Shown here in pieces: positions 1 through 5,323 of a DNA stretch of 7,924 nt (positions within the stretch are counted from its first letter, which is position 1; every line of letters begins with the position of its first letter). This DNA comes from a bacterium (GTDB lineage: Bacteria; JAJVIF01; JAGGVT01). The stretch is taken from assembly GCA_021157815.1 (NCBI GenBank), contig JAGGVT010000194.1, positions 1 through 7,924 of the forward strand, in the 5' to 3' direction. Both the position numbers and the translations under genes were made by a program. Under the pieces are notes generated by a model, which made no database searches, had not been told where the DNA came from, and was given only the letters and a program-made list of their open reading frames with translations.

Positions 1-1010
1 CGGGATTTATCGCCGCGGTAGAAGCGTTCGAAGATGTGCGGAATATCTTTTTCAGGGATTCCGATTCCCGTGTCGCTGATTTCCACTTCAATATAGCCAT
101 TCACAGGCTTTGCGGATATCTCAACTTTGCCGCCATCTTGTGTGTATGAAATCGCGTTGTTTAGAAGATTTACTATAATCTGCACGAGACGGTTTTTATC
201 AGCTTTTACCTCAGGCAAATCGGATGGTGTCTTCGCGCTGAAAATAATTCCTTTTTTCCTGAATCGAGGTTTGAATTCATAAGTGATTTTATACATCAGT
301 TCGTTCAGATTTACAGATTCCAGATTCAGTTTGGATGTTGAGGATTCAATCGCGGACAGTTCCCTTAAATCAGTAACCATGCTTGTTAATCGTTGAGTTT
401 CCTCACGCAGCAATTCAAGCGTTTTCCTTGTCGGCTCCTCTCCTTTTATGACTTTGTCATTAAGAGCCTCAAGATATCCGCTGATATTCGTAAGCGGAGT
501 CGCAAGTTCATGAGATACATTCGAGACAAGTTCACGCCGCATGGTTTCGATTTTCTCAAGGCTTTCCGCCATCCGGTTAAGCGCGATTCCGAGTTCACCT
601 ATTTCATCGCTTGAATATATTTCAACTCTTTTAGAGTAATCGCCAGCCGCTATCTCCTTTGTGGCATCGATTATTTTCCTTGTCGGATTTACAATTCTTC
701 GTGAGATAACCAAACTGAGAATGACAGCAACAGCTATCGCGCCCAATGCCGCCCATATCAGCGAATCCTTAACATCGGAAAGGAACTTTTGAGCCGCGTG
801 GTATCCTCGACGTTCGCCTCGTCCACCACCGCCACGCCCCAAACCGTCGTCTTCAGGAGGCTCACCCTCGGAACCATTTATTTCCGCGCTGTGGAAATGC
901 GAGAAATGGCGGTTAACCGAATAATCAGCGACAACGCTGACTATCAAAATCGCGACCAGCACGATAAACACGTAACTTGCAATCAGTTTTGTCTGGATAT
1001 TAATTTTCAT
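1..1010 (-). CDS. Sensor histidine kinase, C-terminus cut by left edge
   Basis: Membrane sensor kinase of a two-component system; 336 codons are visible. Numbering from the ATG at 1010: transmembrane segment about 9-29, short extracytoplasmic loop about 30-83, second transmembrane segment about 84-103, HAMP linker about 101-153 (Pro109), dimerisation/phosphoacceptor domain with the H-box SHELATPL and phosphoacceptor His167, then the N-box around Asn285 (LLNNAISYT) and the G1 box DTGIGIP at 313-319, followed by FERFYRG. The rest of the ATPase domain lies off the window. The loop is unusual: a His cluster (His35, His38, His40), an acidic stretch near 48-55, then an Arg/Gly-rich stretch near 59-69. 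The H-box has Ala where Arg is most common (HELRTPL). The start overlaps the regulator's last codons by 11 bp and is preceded by the ribosome site AGAGAGG, so the pair is translationally coupled. What it senses is not shown; metal or envelope stress is a guess from the loop. Confidence 0.96.
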   Translation of the reverse strand, partial: MKINIQTKLIASYVFIVLVAILIVSVVADYSVNRHFSHFHSAEINGSEGEPPEDDGLGRGGGGRGERRGYHAAQKFLSDVKDSLIWAALGAIAVAVILSLVISRRIVNPTRKIIDATKEIAAGDYSKRVEIYSSDEIGELGIALNRMAESLEKIETMRRELVSNVSHELATPLTNISGYLEALNDKVIKGEEPTRKTLELLREETQRLTSMVTDLRELSAIESSTSKLNLESVNLNELMYKITYEFKPRFRKKGIIFSAKTPSDLPEVKADKNRLVQIIVNLLNNAISYTQDGGKVEISAKPVNGYIEVEISDTGIGIPEKDIPHIFERFYRGDKS

Positions 1011-1704
1011 TGTCCTCTCTGAATCGGTATCCCACACCGAAAACGGATTCTATATAGGTCGGGTCGCGCGGGTTGTCATCAAGTTTTTTACGAATGTTTT
1101 TTATGTGCACGTCAATTGTCCTGTCGAAAACTATCTCATTTTCATTGTCGTAGATTTTCGACATAAGCTGATTGCGTGAAAAGACCTGTCCGGGTAATGA
1201 TGCCATAACGCTCAACAAGCGGAATTCCAGCGCTGACAGATGAATCACCTCATCCCCTTTTTTTACCTGGTACTTTTTCCGGTCTATTTCCAAATTCTTG
1301 ATTCTGATTATCTGCGATGAATCCCTCTCGCCCTCCTGATACACGCGACGGAGAATCGCCTTGATTCTCGCTACAAGAACTTTGGGGCTGAAAGGCTTGG
1401 TTACATAGTCATCGGCGCCGATTTCCAATCCGAGGATTTTATCTATCTCCTCTGATTTCGCTGTAAGCATGAGGATTGGCACTTTTGATTCAGCGCGAAT
1501 TCGCTTTGCAACCTCGATGCCGTCGATTTCGGGAAGCATCAAATCCAGAACGATAAAATCCGGTGATTCGCTTTTGAACAAATCAAGTCCGCTTTCCCCA
1601 TCATAAGCAGTGCTTGTTTGGAACCCTTCGTTTTCAAGATAGAGTTTAACAAGATCGGAGATTTTTTTATCGTCCTCTATTATGAGTATTTTTCTGTTTC
1701 TCAT
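1000..1704 (-). CDS. OmpR/PhoB-family response regulator
   Basis: Cytoplasmic DNA-binding response regulator, 234 aa from the ATG at 1704, a normal length for the family. The receiver domain spans about 4-118: acidic pocket Glu10/Asp11/Asp12, phosphoacceptor Asp54 in VLDLMLPEIDG, Thr81 in MLTAK, and Lys103 in DDYVTKPF. A C-terminal winged-helix domain (about 135-230) shows the family signatures SALEFRLL, VFSRNQLM, DRTIDVHIKNIRKKL and VFGVGYRF. The overlapping histidine kinase downstream is its obvious partner. A TTG at 1737 would add 11 residues, but it lies inside the terminator of the preceding gene and the added residues do not fit the family N-terminus. No strong ribosome site precedes the ATG at 1704. 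Likely targets include the small secreted protein gene upstream, based on 11-bp spaced repeats at its promoter; this is inferred. Confidence 0.97.
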   Translation of the reverse strand: MRNRKILIIEDDKKISDLVKLYLENEGFQTSTAYDGESGLDLFKSESPDFIVLDLMLPEIDGIEVAKRIRAESKVPILMLTAKSEEIDKILGLEIGADDYVTKPFSPKVLVARIKAILRRVYQEGERDSSQIIRIKNLEIDRKKYQVKKGDEVIHLSALEFRLLSVMASLPGQVFSRNQLMSKIYDNENEIVFDRTIDVHIKNIRKKLDDNPRDPTYIESVFGVGYRFREDNEN

Positions 1705-1735: not shown

Positions 1736-1760
1736 AAAAAGGGAGACCGTCTGGTCTCCC
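1736..1760 (-). terminator. Intrinsic terminator of the small secreted protein gene
   Basis: Read on the minus strand: an 8-bp perfect GC-rich stem (GGGAGACC / GGTCTCCC, 1741-1760) with loop AGAC, followed directly by five T (1736-1740). It sits 35 bp after the stop codon of the small secreted protein and 31 bp before the regulator's ATG. The short T run may let some transcription through into the two-component genes. Confidence 0.85.
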
Positions 1761-1795
1761 TTGTTAATGTTATCCAGATTAGATTGTGTTAATCA

Positions 1796-2254
1796 TTACC
1801 TGTTGCGACCCTGTCCGTTACCTCTTCCGCCGCCATTGCCATTACCGCCTCCGTTGCCTTTACCACCGCCACGTCCCTTTCGACCGCGTTTACGCTTTTT
1901 AGCTTTCTCCTGGATCTGTTTGACAGTATCAGGATCATCTGATGTTATGGTTATGCGAACACCGTCCTTGATATTCTCAACCGTCCTTTTAGCTTTTGGA
2001 GAATCACAGTTATCTCCACCGCCGCCTCGCCTTGTTTCCTTTCTCTCCTGAATCCTTTTTACGACATCGGGATCAGAGGAGGTCAGTTCGATAATTACAC
2101 CGTTGTCGATGTTCGTAACCGTCCTGTCAACCGCCGGCCTTTGGCGTTCATTTGAGCTTCCCCGCGCGGATGCCGAATTGGAATAACCATCGATTGCAAT
2201 CGCCGCCACAACCAGCATCAGTGCCATTGTTAGAACTAAATACACCTTCTTCAT
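1796..2254 (-). CDS. Small secreted protein with internal tandem duplication and basic Gly-rich tail
   Basis: 152 aa from the ATG at 2254, preceded by AGGAAGGTG. I do not recognise a named family. Residues 1-30 look like a Sec signal peptide (Lys-Lys start, hydrophobic core about 4-21, possible cleavage after SASA at 27-30). The mature part has two copies of a roughly 34-residue unit, at 43-76 and 89-122, with about 19 of 34 positions identical; the shared pattern is RTV.NI..GV.I...S.DPD.VK.IQE. A Gly4 linker and a single Cys83 lie between the copies. The last 30 or so residues are Arg/Lys/Gly/Asn-rich low complexity. The protein is therefore probably periplasmic or surface-exposed and strongly basic at its C-terminus. 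It has its own promoter and terminator, and it lies just upstream of the two-component pair, which suggests a regulated target or an accessory ligand of the sensor. In-frame extension to 2299 is possible but would bury the signal peptide. Confidence 0.85.
   Translation of the reverse strand: MKKVYLVLTMALMLVVAAIAIDGYSNSASARGSSNERQRPAVDRTVTNIDNGVIIELTSSDPDVVKRIQERKETRRGGGGDNCDSPKAKRTVENIKDGVRITITSDDPDTVKQIQEKAKKRKRGRKGRGGGKGNGGGNGNGGGRGNGQGRNR
1889..1990 (-). repeat. Second copy of the coding tandem repeat
   Basis: Encodes residues 89-122 of the small secreted protein. It aligns without gaps to residues 43-76 (about 19/34 identical), offset by 46 residues. This copy carries TSDDPD where the first has TSSDPD. 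Confidence 0.75.
2027..2128 (-). repeat. First copy of the coding tandem repeat
   Basis: Encodes residues 43-76 of the small secreted protein. Identity between the copies is concentrated at the RTV, GV, TS.DPD and VK.IQE positions. That pattern points to an old duplication of a small folded unit rather than recent slippage. Confidence 0.75.
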
Positions 2255-2298
2255 TTTGTTCACCTTCCTATTGATGAATAGATAAATTAAGTATTTCA

Positions 2299-2326
2299 AT
2301 TATATTCTCATTCCTAAACATGTTAA
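2299..2326 (-). promoter_or_regulatory. Sigma70-like promoter of the small secreted protein gene
   Basis: On the minus strand, -35 TTAACA (2321-2326; five of six match TTGACA), a 16-bp spacer, and a perfect -10 TATAAT (2299-2304). The expected start of transcription is near 2292, giving a leader of about 38 bases that contains the ribosome site. This is the best promoter match in the window. Confidence 0.6.
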
Positions 2327-2330
2327 TTAA

Positions 2331-2363
2331 ATGAAAAAGATGTGAAGAAGCTATGAAATTTGA
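2331..2363 (-). promoter_or_regulatory. Three 11-bp spaced direct repeats, candidate operator for an OmpR/PhoB-type regulator
   Basis: On the plus strand, RTGAA recurs with exact 11-bp period at 2331, 2342 and 2353 (TTCAY on the minus strand). The first two 11-mers, ATGAAAAAGAT and GTGAAGAAGCT, match at 8 of 11 positions; the third is conserved only in its first six bases. The block ends 4 bp upstream of the -35 hexamer. Direct half-sites one helical turn apart next to the -35 are the usual arrangement for this regulator family. The stretch is AT-rich, so chance is a real alternative. Confidence 0.4.
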
Positions 2364-2656: not shown

Positions 2657-3196
2657 TCAGGATGTCTCAGGTTTATCTGTAGATTGAGCGAGTTTTTTAG
2701 CGGATTTACGCCTTAAAAGCAATCTGTCAAGGGTGAATCGAGGTTTTGACAAGAACACCAGATACGCTGACATGAAAATGAAAACGGAATCGCGCAGGAC
2801 AGTCATCCATGTAAGTTTTTCGCTGATACCAATTAAATCAAGCGGGAGGCCGCAACCGCAGTCCATGTTCCTGCCACGCAGCAGGTTGATGATAATCCCC
2901 ATTTCAAACACGACAAGCATGACAAAAAATATCAGATTGCTCGAACGGTAAAGCGCGCCGAAAATAAGGCACAAACCGGTGAACATTTCAATCCACGGCA
3001 GAATGATGGAGAAGACAGGCACGGCAAATAACGGCAGAAGCTCATATTCCAGGGTCGCGCGATAGAACGAATAGGGATTCAGGATTTTACTGTATGAGGC
3101 GTAGATGAAAATTAATCCGAGCAGAATTCTGAAAAACAGCGAGAAGAATTCACGCACTCCGAATGATATTTTGTCTTTTACTGGTTTTTCGTTCAT
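2657..3196 (-). CDS. MauE/DoxX-family redox-associated membrane protein
   Basis: 179 aa integral membrane protein with about four transmembrane segments (roughly 18-36, 55-79, 85-106, 131-150). It matches the MauE-like group of the DoxX superfamily. The first helix is followed by YASYSKILNPYSFYRAT and then YELLP, with a conserved LPWIEMFTGL around 66-75, and a DCGCG motif (Cys113, Cys115) follows the third helix. MauE-type proteins are linked to disulfide or thiol chemistry during maturation of exported proteins, and the two Cys next to the membrane are the likely redox site. The basic C-terminal tail (about 152-179) is probably cytoplasmic. It starts 22 bp after the rhodanese stop, so the two are probably one transcript, although no good ribosome site is visible before the ATG. 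The substrate is unknown. Confidence 0.9.
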   Translation of the reverse strand: MNEKPVKDKISFGVREFFSLFFRILLGLIFIYASYSKILNPYSFYRATLEYELLPLFAVPVFSIILPWIEMFTGLCLIFGALYRSSNLIFFVMLVVFEMGIIINLLRGRNMDCGCGLPLDLIGISEKLTWMTVLRDSVFIFMSAYLVFLSKPRFTLDRLLLRRKSAKKLAQSTDKPETS

Positions 3197-3218
3197 AGCG
3201 GTTTTGGCTTAATTTGAG

Positions 3219-3734
3219 TTATTCAACCGGATACCCCTCCTCTTTCCAGTATTCGTAACCATCCTCAAACACAAGAATATTCCCGTCCGTAAAGCCGTTA
3301 TGGCAGAAAAAGTACGCCACTTCCATGGATGAATCGCAACCCTCATTGCAATAGAAGATATATATTCCATCTTTTGGCAGTTTTGATTTCAGCGATTTAT
3401 AAACTGGATATGCTTTCTCCGATGGAACATTCAGCGCGCCTTTGATATGCCCTGTTGCGAACTTATCTTTCTCGCGTGTATCAACAAAAAATGTCACATC
3501 ACCGGCATCGAAAAGTTCAAACGCCTCATCTGAAAAAATCGGGATAGGTTCACAGAAGCCGTTATCATCGCTGGCGGTTGCAGTCGGGTCAGCGATTTTC
3601 TTGTAATCCAGAGGGATTCTGTTTGGATTGGCCATGTTGAACAAAAGCCCGACAAATGATGCCGTGATGCAGATAATCACCGATCCGACAACCATCTGGC
3701 GAAATTCGCTTATATTTTGGTTTCTTTTTTCCAT
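3219..3734 (-). CDS. Membrane-anchored rhodanese-like protein
   Basis: 171 aa: one N-terminal transmembrane helix (about 14-34), a short linker with NPNRIPLD, then a single rhodanese domain (about 63-171). Visible rhodanese landmarks are VDTRE (84-88), TGHIKGALNVP (94-104) and the active-site loop beginning at Cys129 (CNEGCDSS), followed by GYEYWKEEGYPV at the end. Cys129 is in the position of the persulfide-forming Cys. The loop carries an extra Cys133 and lacks the Arg found in many rhodaneses, so classical thiosulfate sulfurtransferase activity is not assured; thiol transfer or redox is possible. The domain is probably extracytoplasmic if the N-terminus is inside. The neighbouring MauE-like gene supports a joint membrane thiol/sulfur role. 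No ribosome site is evident before the ATG, which follows an AT-rich stretch closely. Confidence 0.92.
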   Translation of the reverse strand: MEKRNQNISEFRQMVVGSVIICITASFVGLLFNMANPNRIPLDYKKIADPTATASDDNGFCEPIPIFSDEAFELFDAGDVTFFVDTREKDKFATGHIKGALNVPSEKAYPVYKSLKSKLPKDGIYIFYCNEGCDSSMEVAYFFCHNGFTDGNILVFEDGYEYWKEEGYPVE

Positions 3735-3737
3735 TTA

Positions 3738-3770
3738 TAAAAAAACTAGACAATGAGCTTAAGCCCATTG
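3738..3770 (-). terminator. Terminator-like palindrome between the ELM1-family gene and the rhodanese
   Basis: The near-perfect dyad at 3751-3770 (CAATGRGCTTAAGCYCATTG) folds on the minus-strand transcript into an 8-bp stem with one G-U pair and loop TTAA. After five bases comes a run of seven T (3738-3744). It follows the ELM1-family stop by about 20 bp. The T run ends only 3 bp before the rhodanese ATG, so the dyad could instead be an operator overlapping a rhodanese promoter. Confidence 0.5.
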
Positions 3771-3790
3771 CCATTCATTGTAAAAAACTA

Positions 3791-4876
3791 TTAGACATCA
3801 TCCTGAACAAGTGCGTTCACCGATTTTTTAATCATTTCGATATCGTTGAAATCCGCGGATGAAACCGCATCGGAAACGCTTTCCAGACTGCCGGTTTTTA
3901 CTATATCCTTTCCAATGGCTCTTATTAAGCCGTTATCAAGAAGATTTTGTTTGAACTTGTCGATTTTGTCAACCTTGCCTGCTATTTTGTGAGGCAGTTC
4001 TATCAATATAGTATCCCGCTTTGCCCACAGCGATTCACTTGCCATTGATACGGAATCCTCTGTGATAAAAACCTTTTTCGACAGCGCGAGTATTGCTCTT
4101 GTAGTGCTTATCGGCATTTCGGAATATATCTGCAAAAACGCGATTTGCTTCTTGAAATCATCCGCCAGATTTTTCAAGCGATTCTCAAATTCACTTTCCG
4201 TTCTACGGGATGTGCTGATTATTAACTTTGCGTTTTTCTCACGGGCTGTTTCAAGTATCAATTTCACAGCGTTAATCACATCGCTGGGTGGAAAGTCGCG
4301 AACCTTGCTTGGACCGCCAAGAAAAATCGCCCAGTGATTATCATCTCGATTGATGCTGTATTCATCGGCAAATGAATCGCCGTCATGTTTAATCAATTCG
4401 GGAAGGCACGAATTCGGGCTTGTGCATGGCGCGATAACATTGGAAGGCTCATCGCCTTTGATATCGTGTTTGGGAAGTATAACCAAATCAAATGCGCTTA
4501 GCGGCAGCATTGATGGTCTCATCGCGACAACGCTTTTGCATTTGAATTTCTTTTTGATTATGGCATTAAAACTCGACGGAATTGTGCCTGCTGAAATTAT
4601 TATGCCAGGAGGAGAGTCGTTGATGCTCTTGATATCCTCATCGGTGAGATATTTTTCAGCGCGTTTCCACAAGCTTTTGACGGATGGGAATCCCAGAAGC
4701 ATGTGAAGTCCGGTCAGGCCTCTGAGAAGCGATTCCTCTGAACCAGCCTCCAGTTTCACATTGATTGTGCGAATTGACTTCTCGCCATCGATAAGTTCAG
4801 CAATGCCTGTCGATTGCGACAAATGCCCCGCTTTGCCTTCCGTGATAACAATTATGTTGAGTGGATTTGCGCCCAA
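3791..4876 (-). CDS. ELM1-family (DUF1022) GT-B-like protein
   Basis: 361 aa cytoplasmic-type protein matching the mitochondrial fission ELM1 family (Pfam PF06258), which in bacteria has an unsettled role and a fold related to GT-B glycosyltransferases. Family marks in order: IVITEGKAGHLSQSTGIAEL (9-28), a conserved SAGT near 95-98, LGGPS (186-190), TSRRT (222-226) and ITEDSVSMASE (271-281), which resembles the donor-binding region of GT-B enzymes. Length is normal for the family. There is no signal peptide or membrane helix. No in-frame ATG exists between the upstream stop (TAA, 24 bp before) and the conserved N-terminus, so initiation at TTG 4876 is the best choice; ATT or CTG further up are less likely. 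A role in envelope glycan synthesis is plausible from the family but not shown by its neighbours here. Confidence 0.9.
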   Translation of the reverse strand: MGANPLNIIVITEGKAGHLSQSTGIAELIDGEKSIRTINVKLEAGSEESLLRGLTGLHMLLGFPSVKSLWKRAEKYLTDEDIKSINDSPPGIIISAGTIPSSFNAIIKKKFKCKSVVAMRPSMLPLSAFDLVILPKHDIKGDEPSNVIAPCTSPNSCLPELIKHDGDSFADEYSINRDDNHWAIFLGGPSKVRDFPPSDVINAVKLILETAREKNAKLIISTSRRTESEFENRLKNLADDFKKQIAFLQIYSEMPISTTRAILALSKKVFITEDSVSMASESLWAKRDTILIELPHKIAGKVDKIDKFKQNLLDNGLIRAIGKDIVKTGSLESVSDAVSSADFNDIEMIKKSVNALVQDDV

Positions 4877-5173: not shown

Positions 5174-5184
5174 TGGTGGGAGTT

Positions 5185-5313
5185 TTCCACGTAACCCGGC
5201 ATCCCTTTGCCGGGGTATCGCGCAAATTTCCACGTAACCCGGCATCCCTTTGCCGGGGTATCGCGCAAATCATCATGTAACCCGGCATCCCTTTGCCGGG
5301 GCATAGCGCAAAT
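5185..5313. repeat. Three tandem 43-bp units, each with a 7-bp GC-rich hairpin
   Basis: Copies at 5185-5227, 5228-5270 and 5271-5313. The first two are identical over all 43 bases; the third differs at 6 positions, none of them in the hairpin. Each unit carries the stem CCCGGCA/TGCCGGG with loop TCCCTT, followed by GGYATMGCGCAAAT. The array ends 10 bp from the stop codon of the large surface protein. There are no variable spacers, so it is not a CRISPR. No T run follows, so it is not a classic terminator, but it could stabilise the 3' end of that mRNA. Confidence 0.9.
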
Positions 5314-5323
5314 TGGCTATTCG

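Follow-up and report, generated by a model that had tools for sequence, protein, structure and literature searches.

OmpR-type response regulators that work with HAMP-containing histidine kinases control small periplasmic proteins in Escherichia coli, as in the case of the Cpx system with CpxP and the Bae and Cpx systems with Spy. CpxP, in turn, feeds back on the kinase CpxA (PMC4985592). At the level of DNA, direct repeats spaced 11 bp centre to centre, often three to five in number, are the documented architecture of ArcA binding sites, and multiple repeats have been reported for OmpR and PhoB too (PMC3798270).

Here, we present an analysis of a 7,924-nucleotide stretch of DNA (contig JAGGVT010000194.1 of assembly GCA_021157815.1; the whole stretch is referred to as the window) from a bacterium of a little-studied phylum. 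The predicted arrangement in the window is like that of the Cpx and Bae systems: a gene for a basic, secreted protein of 152 amino acids lies next to genes for an OmpR-type regulator and a HAMP kinase. We suggest, with a probability of roughly 60%, that the small gene encodes a two-unit envelope stress-response protein, the promoter of which is activated by the adjacent regulator via three half-sites. This type of circuit is already known; its secreted component is new to it.

RESULTS

The small gene and its product

The small gene starts with an ATG at 2254, is preceded by the Shine-Dalgarno sequence GGAAGGTG, and ends with a stop codon at 1796-1798 (Table 1). The first-pass annotation had described a secreted protein with two related units of about 34 residues and an Arg/Lys/Gly tail upstream of a regulator-kinase pair, and both the anatomy and the gene order hold. 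The product has a signal peptide, and the two units, PAVDRTVTNIDNGVIIELTSSDPDVVKRIQERKETR and SPKAKRTVENIKDGVRITITSDDPDTVKQIQEKAKK, are identical at 21 of 39 residues (54%). Among the 34 residues of the C-terminal tail, 12 are Arg or Lys, 16 are Gly and none is acidic. The mature protein, with a pI of 10.7 and a charge of about +13, contains a single Cys and neither His nor Met. The gene is followed on the same strand by those for the response regulator (ATG at 1704) and the kinase (ATG at 1010).

Table 1. Features of the locus, in window coordinates
Feature	Position	Strand	Basis or remark
Membrane histidine kinase, HAMP-HisKA-HATPase, ~47-aa extracytoplasmic loop	1..1010	-	Domain search, inspection
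OmpR/PhoB-type response regulator, Response_reg + Trans_reg_C	1000..1704	-	Best NCBIfam match BaeR, below cut-off
Strong terminator/attenuator hairpin with T-run	1739..1762	-	z -4.2; separates small gene from response regulator gene
Gene for secreted two-unit basic protein	1796..2254	-	ORF, Shine-Dalgarno, signal peptide, unit homologs in other bacteria; stop codon included
Arg/Lys/Gly/Asn-rich C-terminal tail	1799..1903	-	Sequence inspection
Unit 2, aa 86-120, strand-strand-helix	1895..1999	-	Unit comparison, profile match, AlphaFold2
Cys83, linker	2006..2008	-	Sole Cys; aligns with Cys conserved ahead of second unit in relatives
Unit 1, aa 40-74, strand-strand-helix	2033..2137	-	Unit comparison, profile match, AlphaFold2
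Signal peptide, aa 1-30, ...NSASA	2165..2254	-	Sequence inspection
Sigma70-like promoter, TTAACA-N16-TATAAT	2299..2326	-	11/12 consensus bases
Three half-sites YTTCAY, presumed regulator-binding array	2331..2358	-	Plus strand ATGAAA 2331, GTGAAG 2342, ATGAAA 2353

Searches of Pfam and NCBIfam with the window protein gave no family that reached its cut-off. CpxP and Spy fold as all-helical hairpins; in contrast, the window protein is predicted to consist of beta-beta-alpha repeats followed by a polycationic tail, and it has no Pfam-A match to their LTXXQ model at E≤1. Unit 2 has a weak local match to TusA (PF01206; E=5.4e-5, 23.4 bits) that does not reach the gathering score of 28.6. The topology of TusA differs from the beta-beta-alpha repeat predicted here, and the window protein is, in addition, secreted.

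The beta-beta-alpha unit recurs in other bacteria

Using the two window units alone as queries against 385 genomes, we obtained four weak but sensible matches in other lineages, which were extended to further ones. A profile of the non-window units matched the whole window protein at E=1.9e-29, unit 1 at E=4.9e-12 and unit 2 at E=1.3e-15, all calculated for a nominal database size of 100,000, so that each unit is below 1e-11; these values are to be read with caution, as the non-window units were gathered starting from the window and aligned together with the window units. AlphaFold2, run on an alignment of two-unit relatives, modelled each unit as strand-strand-helix (mean pLDDT 78, ~90 inside the units), and the model of a relative from the family f176 has strand-strand-helix units too (mean pLDDT 86). 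Foldseek searches of the PDB with two models gave no match at E≤0.001, and the best VIA Z was 5.8, so that no fold match was confident. Judged by sequence comparison and these models, the unit is a real ββα domain that is unnamed in Pfam and NCBIfam, in line with the earlier remark that the protein belonged to no recognised family.

The relatives carry a signal peptide, as judged by inspection, so they are secreted like the window protein; they are usually rich in Cys, Met and His. The unit itself has no conserved Cys, His or Met. Searching named genomes and plasmids with the full-length protein gave no match, and a literature search on the unit peptides found none. Three weak full-length matches were rejected as relatives: L010 and L012 are spurious frames or unrelated genes, while L011 has three stops inside the matched stretch. 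The unit, an ortholog of the small gene and a close ortholog of the kinase are all absent from the three class-mates of the window genome, and the four genomes covered for its phylum likewise contain no ortholog of the small gene.

Gene neighbourhoods of the relatives

Proteins that combine the unit with a YHS domain or with a Cys/Met-rich region are encoded next to CusA and/or a copper-type P-ATPase in G067, G338, G390, G392, G393, G401, G423 and an Elusimicrobia MAG. The secreted YHS-domain proteins of such Cus/CopA copper operons have one copy of the unit ahead of the YHS domain, whereas the window protein has neither a YHS domain nor a Cys/Met-rich region. An ECF sigma factor is the neighbour in G380/G385 (in the order ECF - DUF5667 - unit), in G394 (unit - ECF, and Cus-like genes farther along) and in a Holophagales MAG. 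The protein of this MAG (L036:2983-3654), encoded downstream of the ECF sigma factor, has three units and repeated AMGENCCKGA segments. Three further loci (L034, G420 and G400) have no copper-exporter, ECF or two-component neighbour; the G420 contig ends just upstream.

In G423, the order is CusA - unit - RR - HK. We did not accept this locus as having the same arrangement as the window: because the RR-HK pair gives PhoB and PnpS/PhoR-like scores and has a PstS gene close by, the linkage is probably coincidental.

The copper neighbours in several lineages, together with the YHS domain and Cys/Met-rich context of relatives and the four His in the loop of the window kinase, would fit a metal-binding or metal-chaperone function of the unit, with the window protein being a degenerate copper-handling protein and the two-component system a metal sensor. 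However, the unit is devoid of conserved metal ligands of the Cys, His or Met type, the mature window protein has one Cys and neither His nor Met, and a Pfam search recognised no copper genes in the window. We consider this explanation improbable, and, given the lack of Cys/Met/His content in the window protein, metal binding is not to be assumed.

The response regulator and the kinase

The response regulator has the receiver and the winged helix of the OmpR/PhoB family (PF00072, 106.6 bits; PF00486, 84.2 bits). In NCBIfam, the top-scoring models were BaeR for the regulator and WalK for the kinase, with BaeS third for the latter; the BaeSR equivalog cut-offs were missed (BaeR, 252 of 380 bits; BaeS, 201 of 500, with the kinase cut by the window end). 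The remainder of the kinase is on contig C129, the end of which has an exact 127-base overlap with the window end. Because the last 45 kinase residues lie there and the next gene, a SpoIID-like one (named by eye), is convergent, the signalling operon comprises the regulator and kinase genes only. The His, acidic and Arg/Gly patches reported for the kinase loop are present as four His, an acidic patch and GRGGGGRGERRG.

Promoter, half-site array and flanking DNA

The three half-sites upstream of the small gene, which had been picked out as RTGAA repeats abutting the -35 element, are spaced by exactly 11 bp, and the array starts 4 bp upstream of the -35. Among dinucleotide shuffles of the 150 bp upstream of the gene, 0.5% contained three RTGAAR at 11-bp spacing, and 1% contained such a triple if a spacing of 10 or 11 bp was allowed. 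A looser 5-mer test gave a chance frequency of 8%, which is not significant, and the array on its own is thus suggestive only. The 3.2-Mb genome contains the exact RTGAA triple a single time and the reversed control not at all. The array is like ArcA and Pho boxes in having half-sites 11 bp apart centre to centre, three in a row and beside the -35, but its half-site YTTCAY was matched here to no named regulator.

A scan of the minus strand from 1600 to 2650 revealed no further sigma70-like site, and an Rfam search of the window gave no match. Elsewhere in the window, a dispersed MITE-like repeat occupies positions 2426-2556. Its terminal inverted arms of 16 bp are near-perfect (GGGGTTGTTGAAAAAG and CTTTTTCAACAGCCCC, 99 nt between them), and the rest of the genome has about 40 strong matches to it. 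The minus strand upstream of the small gene, at 2657-4876, carries in a row the genes for a MauE/DoxX-like membrane protein, a protein with a rhodanese domain and an ELM1-like (Mito_fiss_Elm1) protein, and at 5184-5314 a 43-bp unit with a hairpin-like core (CCCGGCATCCCTTTGCCGGGG) is repeated three times in tandem.

A parallel arrangement in family f176

In the distant family f176, a gene for a two-unit secreted protein lies directly upstream of a gene for a HELKTP kinase in 18/18 genomes, which count as one evolutionary event; in both loci that were read further, an OmpR-type regulator gene overlaps the kinase end. The promoter has the element TTGCAC-N5-TGACAC-N16-TGACA[C/G], with half-sites at offsets 0, 11 and 33, i.e., 11 and 22 bp apart. 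In aligned promoters, the half-sites are kept and the intervening sequence drifts. With up to two mismatches allowed, the element is found in 16/20 genomes with 17 matches, about once per genome, and reversed controls gave zero. Fifteen of the 17 matches are upstream of the unit gene, one is at a contig end and one is elsewhere. The half-site of Pho boxes is TGTCA, the reverse complement of which the f176 half-site TGACA resembles. Purine/pyrimidine-consistent hexamer triples at 10-11 bp were not found upstream of the f176 genes, which have their own TTGCAC/TGACA array instead. Because the window and f176 arrays differ in sequence, we regard them as parallel examples of one architecture and not as one conserved site. 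The f176 proteins (loci L066-L083) also have a long N-terminal region rich in Cys, Met and His, which in some of them contains near-repeats such as CTAEMAKKCTAEQAAACKAKGA; an LCxxC motif lies between their two units.

The linkage of unit homologs to two-component genes is mixed: f176 has it throughout (18/18), whereas other lineages have copper exporters, ECF sigma factors or the probably coincidental PhoBR-like pair next to the unit gene, or no relevant neighbour at all.

DISCUSSION

The array flush with the -35 and the independent parallel in f176, with its own conserved 11/22-bp array, argue that the small gene is probably a target of the linked two-component system, as the first-pass annotation had proposed. 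It could also be that the genes are chance neighbours, with a secreted envelope or metal-handling protein that has its own regulation and a two-component pair that regulates something else. The hairpin between the small gene and the regulator gene would fit such a separation, as would the relatives without two-component neighbours, the relative whose PhoBR/PstS-type neighbours probably have nothing to do with it, and the outcome of the looser array test. Yet, the minus strand offers no second sigma70-like promoter between the small gene and the regulator gene, the array abuts the -35, and the f176 linkage is a dedicated one with a conserved array. On balance, we find chance neighbourhood unlikely.

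In the circuit that we favour, the kinase would sense an envelope signal, possibly envelope or metal stress, via its short His/acidic/Arg-Gly loop and then phosphorylate the response regulator. The regulator would bind the three half-sites just upstream of the -35 and activate the small gene. Phosphorylated regulator would thus turn on the small gene strongly and the regulator and kinase genes more weakly, by read-through of the hairpin; because the minus strand showed no further sigma70-like promoter there, such read-through may supply low levels of both proteins and, thereby, autoregulation. The secreted protein would then act in the envelope, whether periplasmic or secreted. By analogy to the Cys/Met/His-rich relatives beside copper exporters, its role is probably to buffer or protect the envelope. 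The circuit is also favoured by the unit genes that neighbour ECF sigma factors in three further lineages and by those that neighbour CusA or P-type ATPases in several. Against it, the hairpin could fully separate the regulator and kinase genes from the small gene, the window protein does not share the metal-binding character seen in relatives, neither a two-component nor an ECF neighbour is present at several of the related loci, and the array falls short of significance in the looser test.

It is plausible, by analogy to CpxP, that the secreted protein is a ligand or modulator of the kinase. A stronger version would be a feedback module in the sense of CpxP, in which the secreted protein is the main target of the regulator and directly modulates the extracytoplasmic loop of the kinase via its cationic tail or its units. 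There is precedent for this in CpxP (PMC4985592). Moreover, two unrelated lineages show dedicated linkage to a kinase, the unit gene being the first of the operon in both, and the short loop of the window kinase has an acidic patch that could bind a protein of such high positive charge. However, the sensor region of the f176 kinases is different and much larger, so that there is no docking surface in common, and no such kinase accompanies the relatives that neighbour ECF factors or copper pumps. We judge this version of the favoured circuit to be rather doubtful.

The unit is an unnamed secreted domain that has been missed by Pfam and NCBIfam and that is tied by its neighbourhoods to envelope signalling and copper export in several phyla; being unnamed in the libraries searched, the family merits a family model. 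The arrays in the window (11 bp) and in f176 (11/22 bp) provide promoter-level predictions in two lineages. Tentatively, we speculate that the unit represents a family of secreted accessory domains, as yet undescribed, through which envelope or metal stress is reported to signalling machines of different kinds, such as OmpR-type two-component systems and ECF sigma factors, and that paired units together with their own kinase form a dedicated cassette in at least two unrelated lineages. If the secreted protein does act on the kinase, the locus would represent a feedback circuit of the CpxP kind that is assembled from unrelated parts.
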